Below, piece after piece: positions 18,763-45,847 of a stretch of 50,812 nucleotides of DNA. The position numbers and the translations under genes were made by a program. This stretch comes from Bacteroidota bacterium (lineage in GTDB: Bacteria; Bacteroidota; Ignavibacteria; Ignavibacteriales; Ignavibacteriaceae). Under the pieces are notes generated by a model. It did no database searches. It was not told the origin of the DNA and worked only from the letters and a program-made list of their open reading frames with translations. The DNA lies in contig JAKAKL010000135.1 in NCBI GenBank assembly GCA_021824565.1, positions 1-50,812 on the forward strand. The letters run 5' to 3'. Position 1 is the first letter of the stretch; each line of letters begins with the position of its first letter.

Positions 18763-18892
18763 TTATCTATCCTCTTCCTTTCTTTTTGTATGTTGTAATT
18801 TTTGTTGTTTAAGTAATTAGTCTTAGCATGTCAATATTTTCACATAGACTATTGTCCATGCTGCTGTTAATTTGTCTAAATTTTCATCAAAC

Positions 18893-19417
18893 AAGCATAT
18901 TTTTATCTAAAATATCCATATTTATAATATTTATTTAGATATTATTATTATCTATTTATGAATTAATATTATCTTTTTGAATAATATTATTATCTATTTG
19001 CAAATTGATAATATCTTTTTGAATAATAATATTATCTTCTTCCATATTTATAATATCTTTTTAAATAATGATATTATAAATTCTTCTAATAATATTTTTT
19101 ATTCGCAAATTCATAATATCTATACGGAAATGGTTATTATATATAGGCATATTTTAATTATTCATTCGCCTATTTTAATTAACTATTTTATAATAATTAT
19201 TATCTTTAGTCGAATTAATAATATGTTTTCGCAAATAGACATTATCTTTTCCGGGATTAATAATATCTTTCTAAGAATTTATATTATCTATTCCGGCATG
19301 TGTAATAATATTATTTACGCCGGAAGTTATTATAAATATGATCGACTTATTTTTTCCGGCTCAATTTATCAAAGAACAAGAATTTTTATTTCATCTTTGC
19401 AAATCGAATCTTAGCAC
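18893..19417. repeat. AT-rich degenerate 21-bp-period array (about 25 units)
   Basis: Cutting from 18893 in steps of 21 gives units that align without indels to about 19396, with weaker units at both ends. The commonest pattern is TCN-NNN-ATT-NAT then AATATCTTT; examples start at 18998, 19040, 19208 and 19250. Units differ from one another at many positions yet register is kept. Several units contain dyads such as AATAATATTATT. The 21-bp period equals about two B-DNA turns. The long open frame across the array follows from 21 being a multiple of 3; I regard it as non-coding. Confidence 0.85.
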
Positions 19418-42716: not shown

Positions 42717-44438
42717 TCATACATTCCCGTTTTCGTTGCTTACCAGATATCTTTTAATCTTCTGGGTCGTTGTCTTTTCAAACTCAGCCTGGCGGACATA
42801 GAATTTTTTTATCTGCTTGTAAACCGGAAGCTCTTTATTGACTTCTTTAATTACCTGCGCAATCGTCTGCTGAACCAATTCCTCAGTAATCGGAACATTA
42901 TTATTTTCAGAATATTCTATGAACGCTTCCGCATCTGTTACAAGCTGCACCGCAATTATTTCATCTTGCTTCTGATCTTTTTCGCCGTAGACCAAACTTT
43001 CGAGCACATAAGGATTGCGGTTTAAAATATCTTCAATCTCTTCGGGAAAAACATTTTCTCCGTTCCTCGCGATGATCACGTTTTTCTTTCTTCCGCTTAT
43101 ATGAAGAAAACCATCTTCGTCAAATGAACCCACATCGCCGGTCTTAAACCAGCCGTCCTCAAACGAATCGGAAGTTAATTTTTCATTCTTGTAATAGCCA
43201 AGCATAACGTTCGGTGCCTTTGCGAAGATTTCACCGACTCCTTTAGCATCCGGATGATTAATCTTTAATTGAACACCCGGCAAAGGAATTCCCGCCGCAT
43301 TGTCTTTAAAATTATTTAATCTATTCAAGGTCAATATCGGGGATGTTTCCGTCAACCCGTAGCCTTGAACAAAATTAAATCCAAATTCGCGCAATCCTTT
43401 CGCAACCTTTGGATCGGGCGCGGCGCCGCCTGCAATAAAAATTCTGATCGAGCCGCCGAACTTTTCGTGAAGCTCTTTAAATACAATTTTCTTGAAACTT
43501 TTCCATCCGGCTTTTTCCGCAACGTCAGTAATCTTTATTAATGGCTTTATGATCTTCGATTTCGTTTTATCTTCATTAATCGATTTATAAATTCTCTTGA
43601 ACATTTTATCGAACAACAAAGGAACGCCGAGAAGCATTGTCGCTTTAACTTTTTGAAGATCGTCAACAACAGTTTTAAGCGACTGCGCATAATGCGCCGA
43701 TGAGCCGCAGTAAAGCGGGCACAAAAATCCGCACGTGCACTCGTAAGTATGGTGCATCGGGAGCACCGATAAAAACCTGTCTTCCGGATAAATGAAAAGC
43801 ATGCTTACCATGCTCATCAAATTTGATTTGAGATTTCCCTGGCTGAGCATCACTCCCTTCGCTCTTCCAAGCGAGCCGGATGTAAAAATAATTTCCGCTA
43901 CTTCGTCATTATTAATTTTAGGAAGTTCTGATATACTTACTGCTTTGTTTGAATTAATAAGCTCCGGCATCGACACGAATCCGTCTTTGGCAGAAAGCAA
44001 ATCCATGCTGATAAAGTGCTTCAGCTTTTTTGTAAGGTGCATATTCTCTCTCATCATCGAATGGAAATTCCCGGAGAATACAATCGCCTCTGAGTCGGAC
44101 TCATGAATGATATTTAAGATCTCATTCGTGGTAAGATTTTTATCGATAGGCACAATGACAAGATTAAAAACCATAGCGGTCAAATAAGTAATTCCCCATT
44201 GAACCCTGTTCTCGCCGATGACAGCGATGTGCGTCCGCTCTTTAATGCCAAGCTTTTGCAGCGCGCCGCCGAACTTTAAAACATTATCGAGAAGCTGAAT
44301 GTATGTTACTTTAGAAATAGGAGTAGATGATATGTCCTCAAGAGCAGTTTTGCCCTGGTATCTCTCCGCCGATTTTAGTAGCATGTCCTGAACCGAAGAT
44401 ATTTCAGGAACATCGAAAAGTTTATTTTTATCTTTCAT
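42717..44438 (-). CDS. Long-chain acyl-CoA synthetase-like AMP-binding protein
   Basis: A 573-residue ANL-superfamily enzyme activating fatty acids via acyl-adenylate. Motifs: A3 loop IIFTSGSLGRAKGVMLSQ, A5 VQGYGLTETSPILTLN, A7/A8 FKTGDVGSFDEDGFLHIS then GRKKNVIIARNGENVFPEEI, and the A10-like lysine in TTQKIKRYLV. The A3 loop deviates from the usual TSGTTGxPKG (here SLGRAKG), but the lysine is kept. It lies alone next to a large non-coding interval. Substrate is probably a long-chain acid; a narrower one cannot be excluded. Confidence 0.9.
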   Translation of the reverse strand: MKDKNKLFDVPEISSVQDMLLKSAERYQGKTALEDISSTPISKVTYIQLLDNVLKFGGALQKLGIKERTHIAVIGENRVQWGITYLTAMVFNLVIVPIDKNLTTNEILNIIHESDSEAIVFSGNFHSMMRENMHLTKKLKHFISMDLLSAKDGFVSMPELINSNKAVSISELPKINNDEVAEIIFTSGSLGRAKGVMLSQGNLKSNLMSMVSMLFIYPEDRFLSVLPMHHTYECTCGFLCPLYCGSSAHYAQSLKTVVDDLQKVKATMLLGVPLLFDKMFKRIYKSINEDKTKSKIIKPLIKITDVAEKAGWKSFKKIVFKELHEKFGGSIRIFIAGGAAPDPKVAKGLREFGFNFVQGYGLTETSPILTLNRLNNFKDNAAGIPLPGVQLKINHPDAKGVGEIFAKAPNVMLGYYKNEKLTSDSFEDGWFKTGDVGSFDEDGFLHISGRKKNVIIARNGENVFPEEIEDILNRNPYVLESLVYGEKDQKQDEIIAVQLVTDAEAFIEYSENNNVPITEELVQQTIAQVIKEVNKELPVYKQIKKFYVRQAEFEKTTTQKIKRYLVSNENGNV

Positions 44439-44636
44439 TTTTCTTTCCCGTAAAAATCTTTGCCGAAAGTTAAAAATAGTTTTGTTTATTTAAAAGAAAA
44501 TTCTTTATGGGAACAGAACGATTTTTTTTACAATAAATATTCATGAACTTAACCATAGATCAAAGTATCCATAAAGATATAAATAAATCTGCCTATGTTA
44601 ATCTTATCATCTGTTGTCTATTCTTTATATTAAGAA

Positions 44637-45006
44637 GCATCATTGCTTAAATTTAAGGATTAATGCTAAATTTTAAGGAATAATGCTTCGCCGGAAGCAT
44701 TAATGCTTCTCAGGAAGGGAAATTCCTTCGATCCGAAGGAACATTCCTTCATTAACAAGTAACATTCCTTCCCGCCGGAGCAATGTTCCTTCCGCTGCAA
44801 GGAAAGTTCCTACCCGCCGAAGGGTTAATCCTTCCACTGGCAGCAATTTTTCTACACAAGGCAAGAAAATTCCTTCGAGAGGAAGGATTAATGCTTCCGA
44901 TGCCAGCATTAATGCTGCGGAGTGAAGGAATGGTGCTTCGCCGGAAGGATTAATGCTTCAAAATAAGGGAAGATGCTTCAGCGGAAGGGATTTTAGCTTA
45001 TTTTCG
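44637..45006. repeat. Degenerate 20/21-bp-period array with dyad units (18 units)
   Basis: From 44637 the sequence divides into 18 units: four of 20 bp, ten of 21 bp (44717-44926), then four of 20 bp. Each starts near GG/GC and contains a dyad such as GAAGCATTAATGCTTC (perfect 16-bp palindrome at the unit 3/4 junction) or GAAGGAACATTCCTTC (near-perfect). Between dyads lies a second symmetric core like TTCGCCGGAA. Units vary widely but keep these positions. The change between 20 and 21 bp breaks any reading frame, so the array is non-coding. It is neither CRISPR-like nor a simple microsatellite. Confidence 0.88.
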
Positions 45007-45140
45007 CAGCTTTAATCGTTTTTTATATAGTAATTATTCTTAACAATTTTGAATGAAAATTCTTGAGTGTAAATGTGTTTTTAGATTTCAAGCTTTCATT
45101 TGTGATTTATGAGCAATCTTATAATGCACAATTTTCATCT

Positions 45141-45296: not shown

Positions 45297-45336
45297 AATA
45301 CCCGGCTTTGATTTAGCAAAGACCGGGTATTTTCGA
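45297..45336 (-). terminator. Rho-independent terminator of the gene at 45362
   Basis: On the minus strand, AATACCCGGTCTTTG and CAAAGCCGGGTATT pair around a six-base loop with one bulged base, followed by a T-rich run. It begins about 25 bp past the stop codon. Confidence 0.85.
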
Positions 45337-45361: not shown

Positions 45362-45847
45362 TTATTGAGCCGGGGTAGGAGGAGGAGTTGGAGTGCTGCC
45401 GCCGGTTTTTCTTGCGAACCTTTTTCCAAGCTCGTCAACTGCGGCTTCCATTCCGCCTACGTTCTGACCTTTCACTTTTGCCATTGTATAGACTAAAAGG
45501 GATGCGCTGTAAGCCTCTGCGCCGATCTCTTTTAGAGTATCGGTTAATTTTTCGGTGAAAGTAATATAACGTTTTACTACAGGATAAAATACATTGTATA
45601 GCTCAACGTCTTTTCTCATTTCCGTTACATCAAATTCGCGCGGCATCATGCCGGGGTTTTGCAAAGCAGTTTGTAAAGCCTGTGTGAAATACTCTGCGTG
45701 CTGGTCATCGAACCGGGGCAATGCGGATTTTTGCTTTTGGGTAAGAGTAATCAGAAAGGGAAGCTTTGCCTCTTGATTGATTACATCAGCTATCATTTCG
45801 TCTGCAACCGTTTGCTCAAGTGCTGCGCTGACTTTATTGGGTACCAT
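45362..45847 (-). CDS. Helical hypothetical protein with proline-rich tail
   Basis: A 161-residue soluble protein. It is mostly alpha-helical (VADEMIADVINQEAKLPFLI, YFTQALQTALQNPGMMPREF, VVKRYITFTEKLTDTLKEIG) and ends in a low-complexity tail (GSTPTPPPTPAQ). No signal peptide, membrane helix or catalytic motif. GGAGGTTACT-like sequence precedes the ATG. It has its own terminator and is flanked by hairpins on both sides, so it is a single-gene unit. I recognise the type as a recurring Bacteroidota hypothetical but know no function. Confidence 0.78.
   Translation of the reverse strand: MVPNKVSAALEQTVADEMIADVINQEAKLPFLITLTQKQKSALPRFDDQHAEYFTQALQTALQNPGMMPREFDVTEMRKDVELYNVFYPVVKRYITFTEKLTDTLKEIGAEAYSASLLVYTMAKVKGQNVGGMEAAVDELGKRFARKTGGSTPTPPPTPAQ

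Follow-up and report, generated by a model that had tools for sequence, protein, structure and literature searches.

A phased array of 14-bp dyads in an Ignavibacteriaceae genome and a candidate HTH_26 partner protein

An intergenic array of 18 helically phased dyads lies near 44.6 kb of the 50,812-nucleotide stretch of DNA analysed here (the window), and it is probably a remote binding platform for a small HTH_26 protein encoded on another contig of the same genome, C18. The array recurred at dispersed places in the genome, and between copies its cores changed more slowly than its spacers. Genes of the HTH family carried a 21-bp period upstream, and the core of the window array resembled that of the array in front of the C18 gene. 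Binding of the protein, its cooperativity, autoregulation of its gene and the role of the remote arrays are what we infer from these patterns. No description of such arrays, or of their pairing with an HTH gene, was found in the literature searched, which lay mostly outside subscription journals.

Anatomy, copies and conservation of the array

The features of the window are as follows.
18859..19341, no strand: AT-rich phased array (the first in the window) with a 21-bp period and a unit different from that of the 44.6-kb array
42717..44438, minus strand: AMP-binding enzyme (acyl-CoA ligase type), start codon about 200 bp from the 44.6-kb array
44635..45005, no strand: phased dyad array of 18 units, each a 14-bp core (consensus AAGSAWNNWTSCTT) and a G+C-rich spacer of 6-7 bp
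44985..45008, plus strand: right end of the array, AAGGGATTTTAGCTTATTTTCGCA
45362..45847, minus strand: 161-aa protein without a Pfam match, 3' end facing the array

The centres of the 44.6-kb array were spaced, in order, by 20 bp (four times), 21 bp (ten times) and 20 bp (three times), and the array ended at about 45005. The coordinates and the count of 18 units, 20 bp at both ends and 21 bp in the middle, given in an earlier sequence-only reading of this DNA, were thus confirmed. The palindromic core that it assigned to each unit was present as a dyad, but an imperfect one, with exact AAGSAWNNWTSCTT in 6 of the 18 units. The second symmetric core that it saw alternating with the first did not hold up, since TTCGCCGGAA was exact at just two of the 17 junctions (44687 and 44937); the other spacers differed, mostly from one another. 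The G+C content was 65% in the spacers and 34% in the cores. A terminator-like hairpin at about 45300-45329 (by eye) faces the array beside the 3' end of the 161-aa gene.

When even dyads 20-22 bp apart were sought across the 50.8-kb window by a search blind to sequence, one outstanding chain was obtained. Its score was 50.4, compared with a mean of 11.0 and a maximum of 15.7 for 60 Markov shuffles of the window, and it took in 16 of the 18 array units. When lags of 8-63 bp were scanned, the top 60 windows all fell in the 44.6-kb array or in the array at about 18.8-19.3 kb, with lags of 20, 21, 42 or 63. Tandem Repeats Finder detected just two fragments of the 44.6-kb array. The 18859-19341 array is of the same class as the 44.6-kb array; its dyads were weak and odd-centred, and it had no match to the 44.6-kb core.

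CRISPR arrays consist of near-identical repeats and unique spacers, typically with 50 bp or more per unit. The unit of 20-21 bp, the variable cores and the spacers of 6-7 bp set the 44.6-kb array apart from them, as the sequence-only reading had already stated. No match to an Rfam family above the gathering score was found in the window. Nor did the array have the form of a MITE or REPIN, for its ends were conserved but not inverted (by eye), and a Pfam scan of ten neighbour proteins of five family arrays revealed no transposase, nor did it turn up a gene for replication or partition.

The window is contig C128 of a genome of 4.59 Mb in 148 contigs (G000), and its array is called W below. Copies of W were present on C142 (96% identical) and C68 (79% identical), and a more distant copy on C147 had 23 dyads in chain. 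Across the 4.59-Mb genome, the core pattern matched only W, C142, C68 and C18, and a reversed-pattern control gave 0 matches. These dispersed arrays lay in either orientation relative to the neighbour genes. C142 and C68 had part of the left end in common with W (by eye), and six arrays compared by eye (the window, C142, C68, C147, and those on contigs C11 and C7 of G018, a genome of the same genus) all carried TTTTAGCTT at the corresponding right end. As a side observation, related lipoprotein-like proteins (..GCSSTYT..) are encoded next to the arrays on C142 and C68, and both are oriented alike with respect to their array (L036 7066-8466 and L037 11488-12144).

Among relatives, BLAST with the array found nothing in the other 79 of 80 family genomes. 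R1, a three-unit model derived from W, C68 and C18 that is more sensitive than BLAST, matched four of the 80 (G000, G018, G071 and G043). Diverged copies were found in G018, as two remote arrays of AAGSAA type; absence from all related genomes, which the sequence-only reading had named as fatal to itself, is therefore not the case. In the other 11 genus relatives R1 had no match at an E of at most 0.01. The G043 match was dropped, as it had no 21-bp period; the G071 match was a 21-bp array (z 8.8) but had another core and was not tied to an HTH array. The orthologous ligase locus was found in 11 of 12 genus relatives, and the array was absent from the fetched flanks in all 11, some of which end at contig ends. 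The best dyad chains there scored 12.7 and 14.3, inside the shuffle range.

A scan of genome contigs returned 21 stretches, of which eight were clear arrays (two of them those of G018) and 13 were not; three of the 13 had short chains of 14-19. Six of the 21 stretches came from other phyla and contained arrays with an AAGSAW core phased at 21 bp; each of the three genomes had two such loci.
L085 and L089: arrays of Myxacorys californica
L091 and L098: arrays of a Dysgonamonadaceae MAG
L092 and L093: arrays of an Acidobacteriota MAG
These arrays may be convergent or horizontally acquired. No HTH gene of the C18 type was present in the fetched loci (at most 8 kb) of the cyanobacterial, Acidobacteriota and Dysgonamonadaceae arrays. 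The flanks appeared common within the Myxacorys californica pair and within the Dysgonamonadaceae pair (by eye).

Between W and the C142 copy, changes were found at 5 of 224 core positions and 9 of 106 spacer positions (Fisher 0.016). Between W and the C68 copy, whose first four aligned units may not be homologous, the corresponding counts were 38 of 238 and 40 of 99 (Fisher 3.7e-6). Among 67 distinct cores, positions 6 and 9 covaried (46 paired versus a shuffle mean of 31, p 0.0002), weaker covariation was seen at core pairs 1-14 (p 0.004) and 4-11 (p 0.007), and the remaining four pairs showed none; these p-values are optimistic because units within one array are related. The overall pattern is that of a double-stranded DNA site rather than that of an RNA or a protein-coding repeat.

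It is very doubtful that the array acts as an RNA folding into serial hairpins in a transcript, a possibility raised by the sequence-only reading together with a check by folding and covariance. Both strands did fold more stably than their shuffles (z -7.3 and -8.4, 100 shuffles each), but stable folding of both strands is expected because the array consists of dyads, and the predicted pairing was long-range instead of serial. G-T mismatches in the cores were not in excess of C-A mismatches (27 versus 33), and positions 6 and 9 covaried even though a five-pair hairpin would have them in its loop. The lack of an Rfam match in the window and the arrays' two orientations to their neighbours speak against an RNA as well. 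We give still less credit to a decayed coding repeat, in which 21 bp would be seven codons of a heptad-repeat protein. The C147 array and a 42-bp array at L134 are open in several frames, as such a repeat might be; however, the 20-bp units common to W and C142 break the frame, each of the six frames of W contained 3-9 stops, and the variation fell in contiguous spacers and not at every third position (by eye). No intact in-frame homologue of the array was seen in a relative. A coding origin, the other finding that the sequence-only reading held would count against it, is thus not supported.

HTH_26 genes and their upstream arrays

The array on C18 consists of nine AAGGAATATTCCTT-type units about 70-250 bp upstream of an HTH gene, the last of them about 70 bp from the ATG. 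The gene product has 117 aa and a Cro/C1-type HTH_26 domain. Two intact HTH genes were recognised by profile in G000, on C18 and C132, and their proteins matched Pfam HTH_26 (PF13443) with 40.5 and 51.1 bits, respectively, at a gathering cut-off of 22. By tblastn, 21 such genes, the C18 gene included, were found in 8 of the 80 family genomes. The complete members seen were 116-123 aa long, and most start with ML[KRT][YL]N and contain CTPND or CTPHD. A profile based on an alignment of the family (A3) was run over 296 genomes of the phylum and matched in 8, the own genome included. Five full-length new genes lay outside the family, in genomes of the same order (G337), the same class (G326) and the same phylum (G163, and G205 with two).

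In the AlphaFold2 model of the HTH protein (mean pLDDT 78.8, pTM 0.52), residues 1-60 formed a confident HTH and the C-terminal helices were less so. All Foldseek matches to this model were above an E of 0.001, with SaPI2 Stl, CylR2, SinR and EspR among the first. Searches of NCBIfam, PADLOC and PDB sequences with the HTH proteins returned nothing. Apart from the HTH gene, no ORF family was common to more than 4 of the 26 HTH loci (up to 3.4 kb), and the system therefore seems to consist of the protein and its arrays alone.

A plasmid or phage origin was considered and is not supported. The array sequence had no match in plasmids or phages, and an exact-pattern scan of viral contigs gave 0. 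The HTH profile yielded 51 pattern matches in viral contigs, none of which was confirmed. By tblastn, one HTH protein had no match in plasmids and one partial match in phages, another had three partial matches in plasmids, and no full-length plasmid or phage match to an HTH protein was obtained.

The strongest periodicity within 900 bp upstream was then compared among genes. For the family HTH genes with at least 190 bp of upstream sequence, the top lag was 21, 42 or 63 bp in 19 of 19 (z 4.7-14.4). This count includes the C18 gene, from which the association was discovered, and several G040 paralogues that are nearly identical to one another. The periodicity at L195 was barely above its own null maximum. 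Two of the 21 family genes (L197 and L199) were excluded for too little upstream sequence; in both, the unit of the paralogue L201 was present up to the contig end. Outside the family, the top lag was 21 or 42 in 5 of 5 HTH genes (z 4.6-15.8; L210 barely above null). Altogether, 24 of the 24 full-length or near-full-length HTH genes with enough upstream sequence had a top lag of 21, 42 or 63, and 22 of them did so with z of at least 5.5. The corresponding background, taken from ORFs in the sampled stretches, was 113 of 1198 by top lag and 13 of 1198 with z of at least 5.5. On the downstream sides of the HTH genes, such a top lag was seen in 1 of 20 (L203, z 4.6). Upstream of the genes of short HTH_26 proteins (L207, L208, L214, L215) it was seen in 0 of 4, although the second-best lag was 21 at L208 (z21 5.8) and 42 at L207 (z42 6.0). 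Upstream of the 19 family genes, the best periodic window ended 42-520 bp from the ATG, the distance being about 400 and 520 bp in two genes. In addition, a 14-bp array with z21 7.3 was noted downstream of L197, and a 14-bp-period array downstream of an HTH gene at L242 505-770 (G040:C6).

The upstream units differed between most HTH genes. Of 24 HTH arrays, 4 had dyad symmetry at p<0.05, as did 3 of 12 remote arrays, all three of which belong to the 44.6-kb family; that family and the arrays of C18 orthologues had clear dyads. Since dyads were found in only 4 of the 24 HTH arrays, the mode of binding may differ between members.

Assignment of array units to HTH genes

A core matrix was trained on the W and C68 cores alone, with no HTH data, and was applied to the 24 HTH arrays. 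The C18 array scored highest, with 98.8 against a null maximum of 17.0, and by this score the unit of the window array is that of an HTH gene in the same genome. Three further arrays exceeded their own null maxima, two in G040 with 47.1 and 35.7 and one in G058 with 19.0, and the remaining 20 scored 10.9 or less, inside their nulls. The array of the C18 orthologue in G021, a short sequence, scored 2.2. For the remote arrays on C147 and the two in G018, the scores were 215, 204 and 154. The two HTH-gene arrays of G018 itself scored 8.8 and 7.7, below their null maxima, and the AAGSAA arrays of that genome are unmatched.

Units of HTH genes recurred at remote places in other genomes as well. In G205, the unit CAATAGTGTCCGTCCANATGG of an HTH gene was found at two remote places, in fetched loci without an HTH gene, and one of these arrays had the same gene-proximal end as the HTH array. 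In G040, three paralogous HTH genes had the unit of one HTH gene, and so did a single remote locus (L269 1484-1790, G040:C10). The array there precedes an arginase-family gene, its proximal end is similar, and it is possibly a captured promoter. Remote arrays thus matched an HTH array of their own genome in G000 (the 44.6-kb family), G205 and G040, and those of G018 and the other 21-bp arrays of G000 were unmatched. The array of the second G000 HTH gene, on C132, had one weak match elsewhere in G000, five weak matches in G021 and one in G018, the matches in the other genomes all being AT-rich. Three of the four genomes matched by R1 were among the 8 HTH genomes of the 80 (P 0.0026, relatedness ignored), a co-occurrence to be read with the facts that R1 includes C18 units and that just G000 and G018 of the four carry the 44.6-kb core.

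In sampled sequence of G000, 9 intergenic 21-bp arrays were counted in 302 kb including the window, which had been chosen for its arrays, and 7 in about 251 kb without it; one of the 7, L123 (lag 84), was taken from the scan alone, and contig L138, with many N, was excluded. G018 had 4 in 383 kb, leaving out the row L112, which looks like an acidic coding stretch. The units of the sampled G000 and G018 arrays were unrelated, and several arrays had no identified partner. No intergenic 21-bp array was found in 236 kb sampled from G020, a genome of the same genus without an HTH gene. The HTH-minus genomes G034, G031, G042 and G047 (200 kb each) gave 0, 1, 1 and 0 rows, those of G031 (lag 21) and G042 (lag 85) coming from the scan alone. 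In 318 kb sampled from G040, which has eight HTH genes, the sole array was an HTH gene's own, and no remote one was seen. Separately, a second dispersed 21-bp family, of GAAAAGGAAACAGCGAGCTAC type and with degenerate edge units, was observed in three copies in G000.
L121 13215-13600: GAAAAGGAAACAGCGAGCTAC-type array
L127 12037-12352: GAAAAGGAAACAGCGAGCTAC-type array
L182 1310-1660: GAAAAGGAAACAGCGAGCTAC-type array

Explanations of the array and related systems

Cooperative binding by a dimeric protein, as proposed in the sequence-only reading, is the best supported option, and the HTH_26 protein of C18 is now a candidate for it; the binding itself we infer. Dimers of HTH_26 (Cro/C1-type) proteins would bind the 14-bp dyads, and because the dyad centres are two helix turns apart, the dimers would all sit on the same side of the helix and could form a cooperative filament. 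The 117-aa product of the C18 gene is the likely protein, and the array of the same core upstream of that gene probably serves its autoregulation. The remote arrays (window, C142, C68, C147) would descend from such a promoter array by copying. They would most likely organise or silence the local chromosome in the manner of a nucleoid-associated protein, or place a neighbour gene under HTH control. The association of the HTH family with 21-bp arrays, together with the recurrence of HTH units at remote places in G205 and G040, makes the window array most likely a remote array for the C18 protein.

A dispersed satellite without host function, non-autonomous and spread by recombination or mobile copying, is an unlikely but serious alternative, under which the HTH genes merely adjoin the birthplaces of arrays. 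Such a satellite would agree with the occurrence of copies with conserved ends at unrelated sites, with their patchy distribution, with the missing array at all 11 orthologous ligase loci, and with the other family of three dispersed, edge-degenerate copies. Nevertheless, the lower variation of cores than of spacers between copies and the upstream period of all 24 HTH genes tested argue against it, and no transposase was among the ten neighbour proteins scanned. Binding by a different host protein, either another regulator or a nucleoid protein, is less probable again. The G018 arrays are unlike the G018 HTH arrays, further 21-bp arrays in G000 and G018 are without an identified partner, and the similar arrays of other phyla have no HTH gene nearby, all of which would suit another protein; however, the core similarity to the C18 array, top of the 24 by a factor of two, points to the C18 protein.

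The assignment of the window array to the C18 protein could be one case of a wider arrangement, satellite chromatin, which we put forward tentatively and with somewhat less than even confidence. Each HTH_26 protein would own a private 21-bp unit, present in about 8-20 repeats at the promoter of its gene and also copied to distant loci, and would form filaments on these arrays. Protein and unit would co-diverge, and lost proteins would leave orphan satellites, in a patchy set of genomes of the phylum. If this is true, an apparently ordinary family of small repressors comes with long phased DNA arrays, both at home and at a distance. It would provide a compact, testable model for cooperative filaments and for the co-evolution of a protein with its repeated site, would explain the purpose of the 21-bp intergenic satellites here, and would offer hypotheses of function for many unannotated arrays.

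Several known systems share part of this organisation. Plasmid iterons and centromere arrays (ParR-parC, TubR-tubC, SopB-sopC) consist of repeats in helical phase to which a small DNA-binding protein binds cooperatively, and they often precede the gene for that protein. Unlike them, the HTH loci here are without a common partner gene, and the scanned neighbours are without a replication or partition gene. REP, BIME and REPIN elements and MITE-type palindromes are intergenic, palindromic and dispersed, with conserved ends, and the 44.6-kb family is alike in all these respects; it differs in that its arrays reach about 23 units, phased at 21 bp, and in its link to a regulator gene family.

The nearest working analogue of the C18 system is StbA of plasmid R388, which binds stbDR, two sets of five 9-bp direct repeats with two-base spacing around the promoter of its own operon (PMC3098194). 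Copies of the motif also occur at other promoters, and the authors discuss segregation without a motor (PMC3098194). The likeness lies in a DNA-binding protein with repeats at its own promoter and the motif elsewhere. StbA-stbDR is plasmid-borne with 11-bp spacing (PMC3098194), whereas here the spacing is 21 bp, the contigs look chromosomal and the protein is of the HTH_26 type. A further difference from the StbA system is that the remote arrays here are as long as the promoter array and that the HTH protein has no full-length plasmid match. The nearest nucleoid-protein analogue is EspR of Mycobacterium tuberculosis, a DNA-binding protein described as nucleoid-associated, which targets its own gene as well as clusters of sites outside promoters (PMC3315491). 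Its fold match to the HTH model was weak and not significant (E 0.08). The abstract on EspR mentions no phased 21-bp arrays (PMC3315491). Nucleoid-associated proteins of this kind bind at many sites and bridge them; in G000, four family arrays and the C18 array are known.

Two other repeats were noted in G000. The array at L134 4790-5220 (G000:C89) has a 42-bp unit, and one of its several open frames reads as a hydrophobic heptad repeat (by eye). The repeat at L122 12202-13285 (G000:C5), whose 76-bp period comprises a constant part and a spacer that differs from unit to unit, looks like a CRISPR array.
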